DNA from: Hungatella sp.
GTDB lineage: Bacteria > Bacillota > Clostridia > Lachnospirales > Lachnospiraceae
Assembly (NCBI GenBank): GCA_022792815.1
Contig: JAAWBS010000051.1
Location: 1 to 64,000, forward strand
Length of the DNA: 64,000 bases
Direction: 5' to 3'
Made by a program: the position numbers and the translations under genes. The notes beneath the pieces were generated by a model, which did not search any database, had not been told where the DNA came from, and saw only the letters and a program-made list of their open reading frames with translations. Shown here one piece after another: positions 52,073 through 61,712 of this stretch (the stretch's first letter is position 1; each line of letters begins with the position of its first letter).

Positions 52073-53857
52073 TCAACCCAGAATATCCTGAAACTGGGCC
52101 CGATACAGCTGATAGTAGGTCCCCCGCTGCTCCAGAAGCTGCCGGTGGGTGCCTTCCTCCAAAATCCTCCTGTCATCCACCACAAAAATCCGGTCCGCCT
52201 TCCGTATGGTGGACAGGCGGTGAGCGATGACAAAGGAGGTCCGCCCCGCAAGCAGCGCCTCGATCCCCCTTTGCACCACCAGTTCCGTGTGGGTATCGAT
52301 GCTGGATGTGGCCTCGTCCAGAATCAAAATCCGCGGTTTTGCGATGAGAATCCTGGCAAATGCGATCAGCTGCCTCTGTCCCACCGACAGGCCGCTTCCG
52401 CTCTGAATCACCGTGTCATAGCCCTTCTCTGTCTTTCGGATAAAGTCGTGGGCACCTACGGTTCTGGCCGCCCACTCCACCTCCTCCCGGGTGGCATCCA
52501 GCTTTCCGTATCGGATATTGTCCGCAATCGTCCCGGTAAATATGTAGTTTTCCTGGGTCATGATGCCCATCTGGCCCCGCAGGCTCTCCAACGTCACATC
52601 CTCCAAGGGATGGCCGTCGATGCGGATCTGGCCTGCGGTCACATCGTAAAACCTGGCGAGAAGATTGATGATGGTGGTCTTTCCCGCTCCCGTGGGACCC
52701 ACCAGGGCGATGGTCTCCCCCGGCGCGATGTCGAAGGAGATGTCCTCAATCACCGGCCTCTCCGGCTCGTCCGGGTAGGCGAAGGTCACATGGTCAAACT
52801 CCACTCTCCCGTCCGCCGGCGGCAGGATCGACGCCCCCGGGCTGTCCCTAAGCTCCGGCTCCGTGTCCAGGATGTCGAAAATCCGCTCCGCCCCGGAGAT
52901 ATTGTTGACCACCTTGTTGTAGAGGCTGGCCAGGTTGCGGATGGGACTCCAGAACATGCTCAGATAGGTGGCAAAAGCCAGAAACGTCCCCACGTCCGCC
53001 TTCCCCATATGGAGGAACCGGACGCCGATATAGTACAGGAGAAACCCTCCCATCCCCCAGGTGACATCCACCGTAGGGCCGAATCCGTCCGCCAGCCGGA
53101 CCGCGCGGATAAAGGACTTCTCGTGTTCGTCCAGGATCTGCCCGAAAGTCTCCCTGGATTCCTCCTCCCCGCAGAAGCTCTGGACCACCCGGATCCCGGA
53201 AAAGTTTTCGTGGGAAAATGCGTTGATATTGGAATTCTTCTTTCGAAACACCTGCCAGCGCCCGTGCCCCTGGATCATCACCCCATACATACCTGCCAGC
53301 AGAATGGGGAGCGTGGCGATGGCAGACATGGCCAAAGGCGGGCTCTTGATCACCATGATGGTGATCACCGCGGCCACGGTCACCATGTCCGGGATCAGGG
53401 TGGTGACGCTGTCGGACATCATGTCCTTTAGGGAATTGACATCGCCGATAATCCTGGCCAGGATCTTCCCCGTAGGGCGCCCGTCGAAAAAGGAAAGCCC
53501 CAGAGACTGGATATGGGTGTACAGCTCCTCCCGGATCGTAAGCACGATCTCATTGGAGATCTCCGCCATCATGACGGTCCGAATCTTGACTCCCAAAAGC
53601 CAGATCCCGTTGAGAGCCAGGGCTCCAAGCCCCAGGCGAAACAGCCCTCTTATATCTCCTCCCGCCACATGGACGTTGACCGCCCTCTCTATGAGAAGGG
53701 GATTTAACAGGGCGATGGCGATGGTGACTGCCATGATGCACAGCACAGCCCCGATCTTTTTCTTGTAGACAAAGAGATACCGGTACAGGCGGATCAGAGT
53801 CTCCCCCTTGGACACCTCTCTCTGAAACTCGTCCTCGCGATATGAATTTACAGACAT
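52073..53857 (-). CDS. ABC exporter subunit, half-transporter with canonical catalytic Glu
   Basis: This 594-aa protein has an N-terminal six-helix exporter domain (about 30-330) and a C-terminal ATPase. Walker A is GPTGAGKTTIIN, the signature is GLSVGQRQL (Val in place of the usual Gly), and Walker B is ILILDEATSS with the catalytic Glu. It overlaps the upstream half-transporter gene by ten bases, so the two form a heterodimer of the BmrCD/LmrCD/TM287-288 type. In such pairs only one ATP site is fully active: here the site made of this subunit's Walker motifs and the partner's LSGGQ. The likely role is drug or peptide export. Expression is probably controlled by the leader at 55600-55927. 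Confidence 0.92.
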   Translation of the reverse strand: MSVNSYREDEFQREVSKGETLIRLYRYLFVYKKKIGAVLCIMAVTIAIALLNPLLIERAVNVHVAGGDIRGLFRLGLGALALNGIWLLGVKIRTVMMAEISNEIVLTIREELYTHIQSLGLSFFDGRPTGKILARIIGDVNSLKDMMSDSVTTLIPDMVTVAAVITIMVIKSPPLAMSAIATLPILLAGMYGVMIQGHGRWQVFRKKNSNINAFSHENFSGIRVVQSFCGEEESRETFGQILDEHEKSFIRAVRLADGFGPTVDVTWGMGGFLLYYIGVRFLHMGKADVGTFLAFATYLSMFWSPIRNLASLYNKVVNNISGAERIFDILDTEPELRDSPGASILPPADGRVEFDHVTFAYPDEPERPVIEDISFDIAPGETIALVGPTGAGKTTIINLLARFYDVTAGQIRIDGHPLEDVTLESLRGQMGIMTQENYIFTGTIADNIRYGKLDATREEVEWAARTVGAHDFIRKTEKGYDTVIQSGSGLSVGQRQLIAFARILIAKPRILILDEATSSIDTHTELVVQRGIEALLAGRTSFVIAHRLSTIRKADRIFVVDDRRILEEGTHRQLLEQRGTYYQLYRAQFQDILG

Positions 53858-55581
53858 AGCATCAACTCCTCCGGCCGCTCATACTGGGCCACAAATGTGT
53901 CGTAATATCGTCCTTTCAGCGCCATCAGGCTCTCGTGAGTTCCCCTCTCTGCGACCTTCCCGTCCTCCAGCACCAGGATCTCGTCGGCATGGCGGACCGC
54001 GGAGATGCGGTGGGCGATGACGATCCTGGTGACTCCCTTTAACCTGGTAAGCTCCTTTTGGATCTCATGCTCCGTCTCCATGTCCAGCGCCGAGGTGGAA
54101 TCATCCAGAAACAGGATAGGAGCCTGTTTTGCCAGTGCTCTGGCCATGGAGAGACGCTGTTTCTGCCCGCCGGACAGCCCCACTCCCCTCTCGCCGATGA
54201 CAGTCTCGTACTTGTCAGGAAGACGGTCCACGAAACCGTGGGCCCGAGCCTGCCTCGCCGATGCCTCCATCACCTCCCTGGTCATGGAATCCCGGCTGCC
54301 CAGGCGGATATTCTCCGCCACCATGTCGGAGAACAGAAAGACATCCTGCATAACCACGGAGATATTTTTCCTCAGAGACTCCAGGGTCAGACTGCGGATA
54401 TCCACCCCATCCAGGGTGATCCGGCCCTGGCTCACATCGTAGAACCGCTCTGCCAGATTGACGATGGTGGTCTTGCCCGAGCCGGTGACCCCCATGATCC
54501 CCAGTGTCTTTCCCGGCTCCACAGTGAAGGTCACATCCTCCAGAATCTTCTGCCCCTCCAGGGTCAGGCCCACATGAAAGAAGCACAGCCGGCCTTCTGC
54601 CCGTCCCAGATCCTTTCCGCCTTCCGGGGAGGCGATAACCGGCTCCTCGTCCAGAATCTTCCGGATCTTCTTGTTGGACGCCACTGCCGCCGCCATGGCA
54701 TTGGTCACCCACCCCAGAATCTCCATGGGCCACACGATGTTGTTGGCATACTCGATAAAGGCCCCCAGATCCCCCAGGGTCAGCCTCCCCCTGACTACGA
54801 ACATGCCGCCCACCGTCACGGAGAGAAGCAGCATGGCCTTGGTGAAAAAGGAGATGTTGGGATTGTACTTCGCCATGGTCTTCGCCTGCTCCATGTTCAG
54901 GTCATAGTACCGGCTGTTGTGGCTGCGGAACTTCTCGATCTCATGCTGCCTGCGGTAAAATGCCTTTACGGTCCTGACACCGTTGAGATTCTCCTGCGCC
55001 ACCCCATTGAGCTTGGCGTTCTCCTGGGTGATCTCGTCATAGACCTTATCCAGCCCGTTCTCCAGTCTGACTGCCAGAAATCCGACTATGGGCATGATAC
55101 ACAGGGGAACCAGAGTCAGGACCGGGTCTAAGCGTATCATGGCAGTCAGCACCATAATCGTATGGACCACCGCCTCCACACACAGAAGTCCGATAAATCC
55201 CATGGCATCCCAGATCCGCTCCGCGTCGTCCTTGACTCTGGTCATCAGCTCACCGGTATTGTTTTTCTCGAAAAATCCCACTGACATCTTCTGAATATGG
55301 TCAAACAGGCTGCGCCGGATATCCTCCCCGATCTTCACTCCGATGCAGTCTCCGGTAAATTCCTGCAGATATTTAAAGATTCCTCTGCCCAGACCGATTC
55401 CCAGAAGGCCGAGAGCCAGCCTCAAAAGCTGCCCGGTCTGCCCTCCTACGATCACGTCGTCGATGATCCGGCCGATGATCTTGGGGGACTGAAGGTCTAA
55501 ATAGATGCCCAGGTACAGGCATACCAAGGCGAAGAGGTAGTACCATCTGTATTTCAAAAAATAGGTTCCAAGTCCTTTCAT
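53848..55581 (-). CDS. ABC exporter subunit, half-transporter with degenerate Walker B
   Basis: This 577-aa partner subunit has a six-helix domain beginning YFLKYRWYYLFALVCLYLGIYLDLQSPKIIG and an ATPase domain. Walker A is GVTGSGKTTIVN and the signature is a canonical GVGLSGGQKQR. Walker B reads ILFLDDSTSALD, where Asp replaces the catalytic Glu. Together with the partner's LSVGQ this defines the degenerate ATP site typical of heterodimeric exporters. The ATG at 55581 with an AAAGGAGG site is used; the in-frame extension to 55665 runs through a terminator hairpin and is rejected. It is the first structural gene after the leader. Confidence 0.92.
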   Translation of the reverse strand: MKGLGTYFLKYRWYYLFALVCLYLGIYLDLQSPKIIGRIIDDVIVGGQTGQLLRLALGLLGIGLGRGIFKYLQEFTGDCIGVKIGEDIRRSLFDHIQKMSVGFFEKNNTGELMTRVKDDAERIWDAMGFIGLLCVEAVVHTIMVLTAMIRLDPVLTLVPLCIMPIVGFLAVRLENGLDKVYDEITQENAKLNGVAQENLNGVRTVKAFYRRQHEIEKFRSHNSRYYDLNMEQAKTMAKYNPNISFFTKAMLLLSVTVGGMFVVRGRLTLGDLGAFIEYANNIVWPMEILGWVTNAMAAAVASNKKIRKILDEEPVIASPEGGKDLGRAEGRLCFFHVGLTLEGQKILEDVTFTVEPGKTLGIMGVTGSGKTTIVNLAERFYDVSQGRITLDGVDIRSLTLESLRKNISVVMQDVFLFSDMVAENIRLGSRDSMTREVMEASARQARAHGFVDRLPDKYETVIGERGVGLSGGQKQRLSMARALAKQAPILFLDDSTSALDMETEHEIQKELTRLKGVTRIVIAHRISAVRHADEILVLEDGKVAERGTHESLMALKGRYYDTFVAQYERPEELMLCL

Positions 55582-55632
55582 AAGGTGCCTCCTTTCGTAT
55601 CTTTCCCAAAGCCTGCACAAATAAAAATGAAA

Positions 55633-55679
55633 AAGCTGCAGTAAAATGCCTCTTGCTTTAGGCACTTCTGCTGCAGCTT
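55633..55679 (-). terminator. Second leader terminator before the ABC exporter
   Basis: On the minus strand AAGCTGCAG pairs with CTGCAGCTT around an inner stem TGCCT/AGGCA, followed by TTTTTC and a second T-tract. It lies 50 bp upstream of the first exporter start, inside its own transcript, so it must be conditional. Confidence 0.75.
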
Positions 55680-55713
55680 ATGGTTAGTCTCCTCCTGTAG
55701 GGGGGACAAAAAT

Positions 55714-55736
55714 GCTGCAGTCTCACAGACTGCAGC
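55714..55736 (-). terminator. First leader terminator before the ABC exporter
   Basis: GCTGCAGTC and GACTGCAGC form a 9-bp perfect stem with a 5-base loop, followed on the minus strand by ATTTTTG. Its CTGCAG arms can also pair with those of the second hairpin, which would create alternative structures. Confidence 0.75.
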
Positions 55737-55770
55737 GTAAATGGGGTCACTGATCTTATGGGTTGCAGAA

Positions 55771-55848
55771 TCAATGAAATCTATACGGAAGCAGGCCGTG
55801 TTTCTTTTTTATGAGGTTTGCGAATCCGGTTCTCTCTTTCTTCATCAT
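55771..55848 (-). CDS. Candidate 25-aa leader peptide of the ABC exporter
   Basis: A short ORF begins with ATGATG at 55848 behind a very strong AAAGGAGG site and ends in TGA at 55771. The peptide is basic (MMKKERTGFANLIKKK and nine further residues ending YRFH). It lies about 45 bases into the transcript from the promoter at 55899 and 34 bases before the first terminator hairpin. The layout matches BmrB of Bacillus subtilis, a leader peptide whose stalled translation by ribosome-targeting drugs opens expression of the heterodimeric exporter BmrCD. No homologue of the peptide sequence is known to me. The call rests on the ribosome site and the context. Confidence 0.6.
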   Translation of the reverse strand: MMKKERTGFANLIKKKHGLLPYRFH

Positions 55849-55898
55849 GACGGCCTCCTTTCTTCCGGCTAAACTCGATCGTTTTTAGATTCTTTGTT

Positions 55899-55927
55899 AC
55901 TATACCACTGTTTTGACGGCCTGTAAA
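55899..55927 (-). promoter_or_regulatory. Promoter of the leader-ABC exporter transcript
   Basis: On the minus strand TTTACA (55922-55927) and TATAGT (55899-55904) are exactly 17 bp apart. Transcription should start near 55892, leaving a leader of about 310 bases before the exporter gene. Confidence 0.8.
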
Positions 55928-55985
55928 GCATTTTTTCATTTCTGTCTTGTTCTTGCCGTATTCTTTCGCGAGGCAGGTAGGGCAG

Positions 55986-57068
55986 CTATTCTTCCGCCAT
56001 AAACCCTCCGAACCCGGAACTGGACTTTTCTGTGCCATCCTGAAAGATCCACAAAGCCTCCACCTGATCCATGGATTCTACCAGGGCTTTTCCGTCCTCG
56101 AAGTCCATGTTGAACAGCGCGGTGGACAGACAGTCGGCCAGCCCGGAATCACGGCACAGGACGGACACGGAGTCGTACTCGTCCCATGGAGTCAGAAGCT
56201 GAGGGTGGATGATATGATGGTAAGTCTTTCCCTCCACCGTATAGTATCTCTGGTAGGAACCGCTGGTCACCAGGGACATATCCTCAAGCTCTATGGTGTG
56301 CAGGTACTTGGTCTGGCTGGATAAGTCCGGGTTCTGGATTCCCACTTTCCACATGGTTCCGTCTCCCCTGGTTCCGATGGCACGTACATTGCCCCCCACG
56401 CTGATAAGACCATATGACAGGCCGTCCTCCTCTAATGTTCGGCACACCATCTCCGTGGCATACCCTTTGGCGATAGAACCGACGTCCAGGCTCATGTCCG
56501 GGTCCGCAAGATATACCGTGGAGGCGGCCTCGTCGATCTGCACTTTAGTGATGTCCATATGCTCTGCCGCCTTCAGGAGCGCTTCCCGGGGCGGAAGAGC
56601 GGCTGTCTCGGGGTTATAGATCCCGTCGGTCCGATACTCATGCCAGATGGAGAGGACGCTGCCCATGGCTATGTTCATGTAACCGTTCGTCTTTTCATCC
56701 ATCAGGGCCGCCTCTTTCAGCATGTCGATGATCTTCTTGTCCACCTGCACCGGCCGGATCCCCGCGTTGTCATTGATGGTCTTGATGTTGGCGATTCCCT
56801 CATAGTCATTATAAATATCGTACAGTTGATGATACACAGCCAGTTCATCGTAGAGCTCCTGGACATAGCCGCGGAAGGTCTCCTCGTCCTTTGCATATCC
56901 CACGATGCTGGTCACTGTGTCAAATAAGTCCAGAAACTGGGCATCAAAGCGCTTCAGCTCCGGCTCCTTTTTCTTGCAGCCTGTCAACAGGCATGCCCAC
57001 ATCACCAGCACCGCTGCCGACAGGACCACAGCTGTGATCTGTTTTCTTTTCAAAAAAATTTTTTTCAT
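55986..57068 (-). CDS. apbE: FAD:protein FMN transferase (ApbE family)
   Basis: This 360-aa lipoprotein transfers FMN from FAD onto a Ser/Thr of exported target proteins. A lipobox (ACLLTGC) follows the N-terminal helix. Family segments are FDTVTSIVGYAKDEE, INDNAGIRPVQVDKKIIDMLKEA, NIAMGSVLSIWHEY, LDVGSIAKGYATEMV, LISVGGNVRAIGTRGDGTMWKVGIQNP and the C-terminal TSGSYQRYYTVEGKTYHHIIHP. Mg2+ ligands are expected in the last block. The ATG at 57068 has a GAGGTG site; a GTG nine bases upstream is also in frame. The natural target in this window is the four-domain FMN_bind protein at 60351, whose V-S-G-S-T motifs are acceptor-like. Confidence 0.93.
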   Translation of the reverse strand: MKKIFLKRKQITAVVLSAAVLVMWACLLTGCKKKEPELKRFDAQFLDLFDTVTSIVGYAKDEETFRGYVQELYDELAVYHQLYDIYNDYEGIANIKTINDNAGIRPVQVDKKIIDMLKEAALMDEKTNGYMNIAMGSVLSIWHEYRTDGIYNPETAALPPREALLKAAEHMDITKVQIDEAASTVYLADPDMSLDVGSIAKGYATEMVCRTLEEDGLSYGLISVGGNVRAIGTRGDGTMWKVGIQNPDLSSQTKYLHTIELEDMSLVTSGSYQRYYTVEGKTYHHIIHPQLLTPWDEYDSVSVLCRDSGLADCLSTALFNMDFEDGKALVESMDQVEALWIFQDGTEKSSSGFGGFMAEE

Positions 57069-57145
57069 CCATGTCACCTCTTTTTGAGAGTCTGAGAGCC
57101 TTGCAGCGACAGACAGGCGTGGCCTGCATGGCCTTCAGCCCCTGC

Positions 57146-59695: not shown

Positions 59696-60208
59696 TTATA
59701 ATTTTTTCACAAAATTCCGAATCCGCTCTGTCACAAGACCGCCCAGCAAGCCGATGACCGCCCCGGCCACCACCCCGGCTGCCATCAAAAACGGCAGGTA
59801 GTAGAATACCCCCGAAGTCTGAACCACCAGAGCCGCGATGGAAAGCTGTCCGATATTGTGGCCGATCCCTCCCAGGATGCTGACTCCCACCTGACTGAAC
59901 CAATTAAACCTTCTGGCCAGTATCATGAAAATCAGGCTGAGAGTCCCGCCTGCCAGACTGTAGATCATGCTGGATGCATTGCCAAAGGTAAACCCCACCA
60001 GCACGATCCTCACTAATGAAACCGCCACGGTTCCCCGGATCCCAACCGTATAGAGACCGACGATGGTCACCAGATTAGCCAGCCCCAGTTTCACTCCCGG
60101 GATCGGGATGGGGATGGGAATGATCGCCTCCAGATAGCTGAAAATAAATGCCAGACCGATGAGCATCCCGTATGTAGCCACCCAGGCCCCTGTCTTCTTC
60201 GAATTCAT
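59696..60208 (-). CDS. Gx transporter-family / heptaprenyl diphosphate synthase component I-like membrane protein
   Basis: This 170-aa protein has about five membrane helices and matches the family annotated as heptaprenyl diphosphate synthase component I or Gx transporter (PF07456 type). It shows the repeated IPIPIPIPGVKLGLANLVTIVGLYTVG and GGIGHNIGQLSIAALVV segments. ECF-transporter S components share this general build, so it may bind a small substrate. In clostridia and Listeria such genes often lie beside FMN_bind and ApbE genes in flavin-based electron transfer clusters. Here the FMN_bind gene is directly upstream in the same direction, with two hairpins between. The ATG at 60208 has a GGAGACA site. 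Confidence 0.8.
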   Translation of the reverse strand: MNSKKTGAWVATYGMLIGLAFIFSYLEAIIPIPIPIPGVKLGLANLVTIVGLYTVGIRGTVAVSLVRIVLVGFTFGNASSMIYSLAGGTLSLIFMILARRFNWFSQVGVSILGGIGHNIGQLSIAALVVQTSGVFYYLPFLMAAGVVAGAVIGLLGGLVTERIRNFVKKL

Positions 60209-60350: not shown

Positions 60351-61712
60351 CTATTTGGCCTGGGACAGCGCCGCCTCTACGGCCTTCATCGCCGCCTCGC
60401 TGGTGACCGTGCTTCCCGAGACCGCGTCCACCTGAGCGCTTCCCGCTTCCTTAAAGGCCGGAGCCAGGGTCTTCAGGGCATCCAGACCTAAGCCCGGGGT
60501 CTCGTCGTCTCCTGTCAGTTCCACGGACTCGATGCTTCCGCTCTCGCCCACTGTCACCACTGCCTTGATGTCTCCTCCAAATCCCTTGGCAGTCCCCTCA
60601 TAGGTTCCCGGCTTGAACGACCCGGCTTTCGCTTCCGCCTGGTCTGACTGAGCCGCCTCACTGTCATCAGCCGCCTGAGACAGCGCCGCCTCTACGGCCT
60701 TCATCGCCGCCTCGCTGGTGACCGTGCTTCCTGAAGCCGCGTCCACCTGAGCGCTTCCCGCTTCCTTAAAGGCCGGAGCCAGGGTCTTTAGGGCATCCAG
60801 ACCTAAGCCCGGGGTCTCGTCGTCTCCCGTCAGTTCCACGGACTCGATGCTTCCGCTCTCGCCCACTGTCACCACTGCCTTGATGTCTCCTCCAAATCCC
60901 TTGGCAGTCCCCTCATAGGTTCCTGGCTTATAGGTCTTGGCTTCCGCTGCCGGCTTTTCGGCCGCACCGTTGCCGGCCGCCTGATCCAGGGCTGCCTGTA
61001 CGGCCTCCATGGCTGCCTTGCTGGTGACTGTACTTCCTGAGACCGCATCCACTTGGGCACTCCCTGCCTTCTCAAAGGCCGGAGCCAAGGTCTTTAAGGC
61101 ATCCAGACCCAGACCCGGGGTCTCGCCGTCTCCCGTCAGTTCCACAGACTTGATACTTCCGCTCTCGTCGATGGTCACCACTGCCTTGATATCGCCGCCG
61201 AAGCCCTTGGCGCTTCCCTCATAGGTTCCCGGCTTATAATTCGCCGCCGCCCCGGCTATATTCTCTTTTGCGGCTTCTGTCTCCGCCTCACTCTCCGCTG
61301 CCGGTCTGTCTATGATGCCGAGCTTTCCGGAAGCTTGGTCCAAAGCCTGCTGCACAGCCGCCATCGCTGCCTCGCTGCTGATGGTGGACCCGGACACCGC
61401 ATCAACCTTGGAACCGTTTACTTCCACAAACATAGGGGCAAGCTGCTCCAGAGCCGTGCCTCCGAGAGCCGGGGTCTCTCCCGCTCCGGTCAGGGTCACT
61501 GCTTCGATTCCCTTGTTTCCCACAGTAACCGTGGCAACCACCTCACCGCCAAAGCCCTGAGCGCTTCCCACATAAGTTCCCGGTGTATAATCTACCTTCT
61601 CTGCCGTCATCGTGTCAATGGCCTTATATAATGGTTCGGAACCGAAGATCGTTCCCACTGCCAGTACCAGCATCGCACCAAGACCTGCATACCCCTTTTG
61701 TTTTTGTGTCAT
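60351..61712 (-). CDS. Exported protein with four FMN_bind domains
   Basis: This 453-aa protein has an N-terminal membrane anchor or signal (GYAGLGAMLVLAVGTIFGS) and then four FMN_bind domains. They start near residues 45, 160, 265 and 370, each with the pattern PGTYxGSAxGFGG, a beta region, GLGLDALKTLAPAF and D-A-V-S-G-S-T. The Thr of this last motif is the expected site of covalent FMN attachment by ApbE. Linkers rich in A/E/K/S separate the domains. Four flavins on one surface protein would suit electron transfer out of the cell, as for PplA of Listeria. Copies 3 and 4 are nearly identical at the DNA level, a sign of recent duplication. The apbE gene lies 3.3 kb away on the same strand. 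Confidence 0.9.
   Translation of the reverse strand: MTQKQKGYAGLGAMLVLAVGTIFGSEPLYKAIDTMTAEKVDYTPGTYVGSAQGFGGEVVATVTVGNKGIEAVTLTGAGETPALGGTALEQLAPMFVEVNGSKVDAVSGSTISSEAAMAAVQQALDQASGKLGIIDRPAAESEAETEAAKENIAGAAANYKPGTYEGSAKGFGGDIKAVVTIDESGSIKSVELTGDGETPGLGLDALKTLAPAFEKAGSAQVDAVSGSTVTSKAAMEAVQAALDQAAGNGAAEKPAAEAKTYKPGTYEGTAKGFGGDIKAVVTVGESGSIESVELTGDDETPGLGLDALKTLAPAFKEAGSAQVDAASGSTVTSEAAMKAVEAALSQAADDSEAAQSDQAEAKAGSFKPGTYEGTAKGFGGDIKAVVTVGESGSIESVELTGDDETPGLGLDALKTLAPAFKEAGSAQVDAVSGSTVTSEAAMKAVEAALSQAK
60366..60615 (+). repeat. 315-bp period tandem repeat, unit A (FMN_bind domain 4)
   Basis: About 250 bp are nearly identical to 60681-60930, offset 315 bp (105 codons). Only a few mostly silent changes are seen, for example the codons around GSTVTS. 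Confidence 0.85.
60681..60930 (+). repeat. 315-bp period tandem repeat, unit B (FMN_bind domain 3)
   Basis: Partner of 60366-60615. Domains 1 and 2 (61000-61600) are homologous but more diverged, so units A and B arose or were homogenised most recently. Confidence 0.85.

Follow-up and report, generated by a model that had tools for sequence, protein, structure and literature searches.

We analyzed the region upstream of a two-gene ATP-binding cassette (ABC) exporter operon from Hungatella sp., using a 64,000-nucleotide stretch of DNA (assembly GCA_022792815.1, contig JAAWBS010000051.1, positions 1 to 64,000; hereafter the window), and find a candidate transcription attenuator there. The operon lies on the minus strand. 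Its first gene (53848..55581) encodes exporter subunit A, a BmrC-like protein of 577 amino acids with a degenerate catalytic site (Asp for Glu), and the second (52073..53857), which overlaps the first by 10 nucleotides (nt), encodes subunit B, a protein of 594 amino acids with an intact catalytic Glu and an LSVGQ signature. Both subunits contain ABC_membrane plus ABC_tran. Subunit A has LDDSTS at the expected place of the catalytic Glu, together with LSGGQ, and subunit B has LDEATS, a pattern that we take to mark an exporter with one degenerate ATP site. The Asp is present in 112 of 114 related subunit A genes, and the other two have no match to the pattern. Among PDB matches to subunit A, YheI/BmrC is the first listed chain of half size (E 3.9e-96); in the list for subunit B, BmrD/YheH (5.1e-98) ranks behind other half-size exporters.

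All elements of the putative attenuator are on the minus strand, at most 350 bases upstream of the operon. A motif scan places a promoter at 55899..55927, with TTTACA as the -35 (55927-55922), TATAGT as the -10 (55904-55899), a spacer of 17 and a TG ahead of the -10; from this spacing, transcription is predicted to start near 55892. The region holds one such match against a shuffle mean of 1.3, which alone proves nothing. The same TTTACA-17-TATAGT promoter is identical in L006, L037, L038 and L039 (L numbers designate individual loci). Downstream of a strong ribosome site (AAAGGAGG), a leader open reading frame (ORF; 55771..55848) runs from ATG at 55848 to TGA at 55771, with 25 codons plus stop (MMKKERTGFANLIKKKHGLLPYRFH). 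Its Shine-Dalgarno (SD) sequence, its open frame and the stop position in relatives, measured from the pairing segment B described below, suggest that it is translated. Terminator 1 is a hairpin at 55736-55714 (5' arm 55736-55727, D arm 55723-55714) of 10 pairs and -16.0 kcal/mol, with a U tract at 55713-55707 (ATTTTTG). It starts 37 nt past the first base of the leader stop codon, that is, outside the ORF, and the middle half of 71 loci have this distance at 30-56.5 nt. Terminator 2 (hairpin 55633..55679) is larger, at -24.8 kcal/mol, and is followed by a U-rich tail (TTTCATTTTT). The folded RNA from 55893 to 55582 has -95.3 kcal/mol (z -4.97), and none of 100 shuffles was equally stable.

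Three segments of this leader can pair in alternative ways. Segment A (AAGGAGGCCGT, 55850..55860) is the leader's own SD region and a putative anti-antiterminator strand. Segment B (55789..55800), within CACGGCCTGCTT late in the leader ORF, pairs with A through 55799-55789 and with C through 55800-55791 (CACGGCCTGC). Segment C (GCAGTCTGTG, 55733-55724) is the part of terminator 1 that pairs with B, and takes in the loop. The A:B helix has 10 of 11 positions paired and a duplex energy of -16.0 kcal/mol; the B:C helix has 9 of 10 and -10.8 kcal/mol. Because B can pair with either A or C, the combination of A:B with C:D and the B:C helix are mutually exclusive in silico.

An earlier, sequence-only reading of this DNA had listed a promoter, an ORF of 25 codons preceded by a strong ribosome site, a pair of terminator hairpins and an exporter with one degenerate site, and all of these are present on the minus strand. 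Its further suggestions can be compared with relatives from the same genus. The exporter is found at E 1e-150 or better in 5 of 26 genus genomes, counting the window's own, and the four relatives have exporters 72-81% identical, a similar promoter, a strong SD and an ORF of 25-32 codons. The expected covariation in the hairpins holds for terminator 1, which is seen in all four relatives with both arms changed together (GCTGCAGTC in the window, GCCGCAGT in relatives); terminator 2 is absent in L005. Terminator 2 had also been regarded as part of the switch. At least 28 of 70 loci have more than one hairpin by a strict finder; the second hairpin is not general among relatives and perhaps has a back-up role. 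A TCTGCA just after the leader stop had been offered as a pairing partner. It occurs in none of the four relatives and within 16 nt of the stop in only 3 of 70 loci, the window included; it is B, within the ORF, that is conserved as a pairing segment.

When the leader was used for a DNA similarity search in 61 genomes, only the self-match was returned. Because the leader does not align as DNA between species, conservation was sought in the pairing. The locus set comprised 114 loci: five from the genus, the best 80 of 584 named loci, and 29 from a family-wide search that matched 69 of 397 genomes. Most of the named records are labeled Lachnospiraceae or bear the name of a genus of that family; others are labeled with a different family (such as two Paenibacillaceae and one Anaerolineaceae) or with none. 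Removing nine loci with identical upstream regions left 105 distinct ones, of which two were too short, so that 103 were used. We built a detector that asks for an SD, an ORF of 18-62 codons, an A:B helix, a stop at -3 to 45 nt, a terminator, and a B:C helix overlapping A:B. The detector fires on 70 of the 103 exporter upstream regions, compared to 1 of 618 Markov shuffles, 2 of 103 reversed sequences and 0 of 103 reverse complements. A repeat at the same thresholds gave 0 of 309 shuffles, looser thresholds gave 73 of 103 against 3 of 309 shuffles, and thinning of similar upstream regions left 65 of 95. The module described above is the detector's best of four matches on both strands of the 64-kilobase (kb) window. 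When its upstream region was shuffled, 1 of 1000 sequences reached the window's score and 6 of 1000 gave any match. Among 12 ABC_membrane matches in the window's genome, the subunit A locus alone scores high (41.8; the others at most 32.3). The earlier proposal of a leader-ORF attenuator before a BmrCD-like exporter is supported, and similar modules lie before many related exporters, mostly in Lachnospiraceae.

A second line of evidence comes from exchanging pairing partners between loci. Pairing was scored as ungapped helices; RNAduplex on long stretches is too permissive. With the best register sought again for each swap (n = 71; the leader of L004 was set by hand beforehand), own partners outscore swapped ones at z 8.5 for A:B and z 9.0 for B:C. 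Within class G (n = 35) the values are 5.3 and 5.6, and within class T (n = 27) they are 2.0 and 4.4; nine of the 71 loci fall outside both classes and are omitted from the within-class tests. Near their ends, the ORFs of one class share a string resembling CAGTCTGCCTC and those of the other a string resembling AAAATTACCTCC; across loci, this recurring B element is complementary both to the SD region A (GAGGCAG, GGAGGTAA) and to the 5' arm plus loop of terminator 1, C (GCAGTCTG, GGTAATTTT). In anchored counts, B:C has changed on both sides, with pairs of three or four kinds at several positions, terminator-loop bases included. For instance, position 9 in class G has TA 15, AT 7 and CG 1, and position 10 has GC 9, CG 4, AT 4 and TA 3 of 26. 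The rows of these counts were selected for pairing beforehand, and it is the swap tests and the detector that carry weight. In addition, the L004 and L005 rows were anchored manually, 10 of the 70 detected loci were omitted as having neither core, and the classes were split by the C core alone, so that a few GGTA-like loci stand in the GCAG table. As a separate observation, B:C position 5 in the GCAG class is mismatched in 20 of 26 loci, perhaps keeping B:C weaker than C:D.

We also asked where else the module is found. Across 80 loci scanned on both strands (1.15 million strand-bases), the detector returned 82 matches, 56 of them at the expected place in 54 loci, and the median score was 40.3 before the exporter versus 31.5 elsewhere. 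Pattern searches blind to the exporter gave 33 loci (L146-L178), on 8 of which the detector fired; five typical ones (L160, L161, L163, L175, L176) each stand before an exporter 45-54% identical to subunit A, with L175 and L176 repeating L142 and L134 of the existing set. These strict whole-genome patterns were insensitive: they matched 24 of 392 and 3 of 397 genomes, many of the places were chance, and a backward control pattern matched too. Class-wide, the detector fired on 8 of 27 loci with enough upstream DNA. Clear modules are present at L191, L192 and L194 from the window's family and at L195 from another. L193 and L197, from two further families, score 33.1 and 34.5, in the range of chance matches, yet resemble L195; L196 is missed by the detector and similar by eye, and L206 and L212 look like chance. 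In all, three other families with exporters 43-46% identical hold one clear module (L195) and two or three doubtful ones, and no module was seen at the remaining 18 of the 27 loci, where exporters are 37-43% identical. At one locus of the set (L059 1847-2969), an acetyltransferase-like gene, named by eye, lies between module and exporter, and the switch may control a longer operon there.

The leader peptides are far less conserved than the pairing. Those of the five same-genus species cannot be aligned over their full length, although L004 and L006 share TSVA(Q/R)LA, and no conserved peptide motif was found across species' leaders. Searching 299 genomes with the window's peptide returned the self-match and then weak matches (next best E 0.05), and Pfam yielded nothing for this peptide at E 0.001, nor did NCBIfam at E 10. 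The endings SVCL and KITSG were considered as stalling motifs and rejected, as they are the B element in different frames. Indeed, B is read in all three frames among the leaders (41, 18 and 5 of 64; six of the 70 detected loci were set aside as doubtful for the frame, stop and promoter counts), while the detected ORFs range from 24 to 61 codons. What is retained is the position of the stop, which lies 10-27 nt past B in 57 of 64 loci in the leader frame versus 11 of 128 in the other two frames. Sequence comparison of 13 close pairs with alignable leaders, few sites in all, gave a synonymous divergence (pS) of 0.22 for the leaders against 0.41 for the exporters. Outside B, the leaders have a pooled nonsynonymous divergence (pN) of 0.135 and pS of 0.224 (pN/pS 0.61), and the exporters have 0.031 and 0.414 (pN/pS 0.08); the pairs were chosen by eye, share members, and in two cases show no leader differences. 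By these sequence measures, the peptide is far less constrained than the exporter, and some weak constraint on leader sequence may exist.

Based on these data, we consider it likely that the leader is a ribosome-mediated transcription attenuator that couples expression of the BmrCD-like exporter to slow or stalled translation. In the absence of a ribosome, A would pair with B, C:D would form, and transcription would end at terminator 1. During free reading, the ribosome would cover B, and C:D would form again; the stop just past B would halt a free-running ribosome there briefly while C and D emerge. A ribosome held on early codons, for example by a drug acting on the 50S subunit, would cover A and free B. 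The freed B would capture C once it is made, leaving D without a partner, and the polymerase would pass into the exporter genes before D displaces B. The predicted output is therefore off with an absent ribosome, off with a moving one and on with a stalled one. In this scheme the peptide sequence would carry little information, the ORF would serve to let a ribosome cover A or B, and the attenuator would probably sense a stalled ribosome more than any particular peptide. Sequence comparison shows the parts of the module, how they recur upstream of related exporters, that B matches both C and A, and the stop geometry; from these features we infer that B:C blocks termination, that the signal is a stalled ribosome, and what drugs would trigger it.

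Predicted folds are in part consistent with this scheme. The free RNA forms A:B in 67 of 70 loci and C:D in 69 of 70, and when the RNA is folded as it stands prior to synthesis of D, masking A gives B:C in 58 of 70 loci, whereas leaving A available gives B:C in 12 of 70 and A:B in 56 of 70. Several results weigh against the proposal. With A masked and the full terminator available, B:C is the minimum-energy structure in only 5 of 70 loci, the window not among them, and in the window B:C (-10.8 kcal/mol) is weaker than C:D (-16.0 kcal/mol). Since the terminator outcompetes once D exists, antitermination must be kinetic, occurring during transcription. The A:B swap test is weak in class T (z 2.0), and the stop-distance figure is partly conditioned, as the detector had demanded -3 to 45 nt. 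The detector misses 33 of the 103 loci, including L003, L004 and L005 from the same genus; by hand, L004 and L005 have 14-position B:C helices, and L003 has six pairs barely touching its B. Among cultured relatives, Hungatella effluvii DSM 24995 (L051) carries the module, and Anaerocolumna aminovalerica DSM 1283 (L062) shows recognizable A and B segments despite being missed by the detector. Conversely, 26 of the 82 scan matches lie elsewhere than before the exporter, one of them scoring 50.1 versus 41.8 for the window. This match (L038 305-520) is far upstream of its exporter and is probably chance. Finally, the leader pN/pS of 0.61 is below 1, and in the pair L083/L097 the leader is nearly unchanged while exporter pS is 0.65.

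These last values bear on the idea that the peptide itself is the sensor, as in leaders of the ErmCL type, where a sequence-specific arrest peptide would bind the drug-loaded ribosome at a set codon and the RNA would merely transmit the event. Such a peptide would fit the retention of a leader ORF with a strong SD among the loci, a pooled pN/pS that is not 1, and a leader pS below exporter pS over the 13 close pairs; for vmlR, the sequence of the short upstream ORF (uORF) is reported to matter although lincomycin is not known to be context-dependent (PMC10201436). However, peptides that lack a full-length alignment among five species of one genus, recurring residues that stem from B in different frames, and a pN/pS of 0.08 in the exporters of the same pairs make an arrest peptide unlikely. 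An amino-acid attenuator of the trp type, sensing shortage of one residue, shares the 1-2-3-4 pairing logic proposed here. Against it, single-residue runs are short, with no more than 2 in 58 of 70 leaders, 3 in 11 and 4 in one; no residue is common to all 70 leaders; the composition of 71 leaders, taken without their final 12 residues, is distributed among Asn, Ile, Thr, Lys, Ser and others; and the regulated target is an exporter. We give this explanation almost no credence.

The hairpins could alternatively be plain terminators, stopping transcription that comes from the ApbE-family gene upstream or fixing a constant low read-through, with no switching and an incidental ORF. They do lie downstream of that apbE-like gene (55986-57077), but the promoter sits between it and the leader, and 60 of 64 loci have a promoter matching at least 9 of 12 positions no more than 130 nt from the leader start, versus 313 of 1280 shuffles. 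As plain terminators would also leave the B-C matching and the stop position unexplained, we judge this quite improbable. Riboswitches, too, use alternative pairing of a like kind, and a small molecule or a protein, such as an RNA-binding antiterminator, might bind the leader RNA. The window has no Rfam match at gathering score, with five matches (E up to 10) in 55540-55960 falling far below the gathering scores, and when 10 relatives were searched whole the sole Rfam match was a signal recognition particle (SRP) RNA in L037, away from the leader. Given also that the leader SD forms one strand of the switch, a ligand-binding leader is very improbable. The attenuator responding to slow or stalled translation is the reading that we retain.

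Several further features of the locus were observed. A short inverted repeat with ATCG at its center, recognized by eye, lies close to where the transcript is predicted to begin, both in the window (55893-55862) and in three of the four same-genus relatives (L003, L004 and L006). The leader stop codon falls within a predicted hairpin (55777-55747, minus strand) that carries TCTGCA at its apex and could be a pause hairpin. Between the two terminators is a strong SD-like string, AGGAGGAG (55696-55689, minus strand), with no ATG close behind. Within 6 kb on the minus strand, the window also encodes the ApbE-family protein (55986-57077), a Hpre_diP_synt_I protein (59696-60208) and a protein with four FMN_bind domains (60351-61712). 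These neighbors resemble, we presume, a gene set for flavin-based extracellular electron transfer.

Inducible exporters help decide how gut bacteria withstand antibiotics. If the proposal is true, a single compact RNA design controls a drug-exporter family across much of Lachnospiraceae, and the leader is a clean case of an ORF selected for ribosome position and not for its encoded product. The use of the SD as a switch strand would let the device tell a stalled ribosome from both moving and absent ones. The combination of A/B/C pairing and stop position is also a rule for finding leaders where methods based on peptide conservation would fail. We are inclined to think that these leaders form an unreported cis-RNA family, conserved in pairing and hardly in sequence or peptide, that guards BmrC-type exporters in Lachnospiraceae and perhaps neighboring Clostridia as a general sensor of stalled elongation, with the SD as anti-antiterminator strand and no need for an arrest peptide. 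In the open-access literature, to which the search was confined (subscription papers and preprints lay outside its scope), this Lachnospiraceae leader is not described among the matches listed.

Attenuators of this kind are already known from bmrB, vmlR, cplR and yxjB and, as a prediction, from patAB. The closest system is BmrB-BmrCD of Bacillus subtilis, which according to the available part of the report (PMC4191407) also has a leader ORF, an intrinsic terminator, a predicted antiterminator and anti-antiterminator, and a heterodimeric multidrug exporter. The sequence-only reading had equated the two gene orders, and this stands insofar as a small co-directional ORF precedes a BmrC/BmrD-like pair; it does not extend to the terminator, which there lies within the 53-codon bmrB (PMC4191407) and here lies outside the 25-codon leader coding sequence. 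Without its start codon, bmrB gave lower output and no longer responded to lincomycin (PMC4191407), in agreement with the prediction of the model proposed here. The portion of that report at hand leaves the role of the anti-antiterminator open and does not describe a link to the leader SD (PMC4191407). In vmlR (PMC9226507) and cplR (PMC10201436), a ribosome stalled on a short uORF likewise favors an antiterminator over a terminator, and in vmlR stalling acts by preventing the anti-antiterminator (PMC9226507). As far as the accessible text of these reports goes, these systems differ in their ABC-F target genes, three-codon uORFs (Met-Ile-Asn; Met-Arg-Ile) and added control of the main-gene SD (PMC9226507, PMC10201436), and the vmlR uORF SD is single-stranded before the anti-antiterminator (PMC9226507), whereas here the leader SD would be the anti-antiterminator strand. 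Drug-stalled leader translation also prevents termination at yxjB of B. subtilis, where the excerpted report describes tylosin-dependent stalling, an SD-sequestering hairpin and a methyltransferase gene (PMC6851288). For patAB of Streptococcus pneumoniae, an attenuator is predicted and its terminator was shown by mutation; the part of the paper available mentions no leader ORF and leaves the inducing signal open (PMC4319486). In the sections available on toiL of Escherichia coli, a single uORF senses at least five classes of ribosome-targeting antibiotics and acts on topAI translation and Rho-dependent termination, not on an intrinsic terminator (PMC12121999). A genome survey of premature terminators, again as partly available, counts 205 ABC-transporter candidates and, for two lactobacilli, shows an ABC-leader that precedes an operon for multidrug export (PMC2965389). 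Against this background, three points appear new, as far as we have seen: that the SD of the leader itself would serve as anti-antiterminator strand, that the peptide is free to vary, and how broadly the module occurs.

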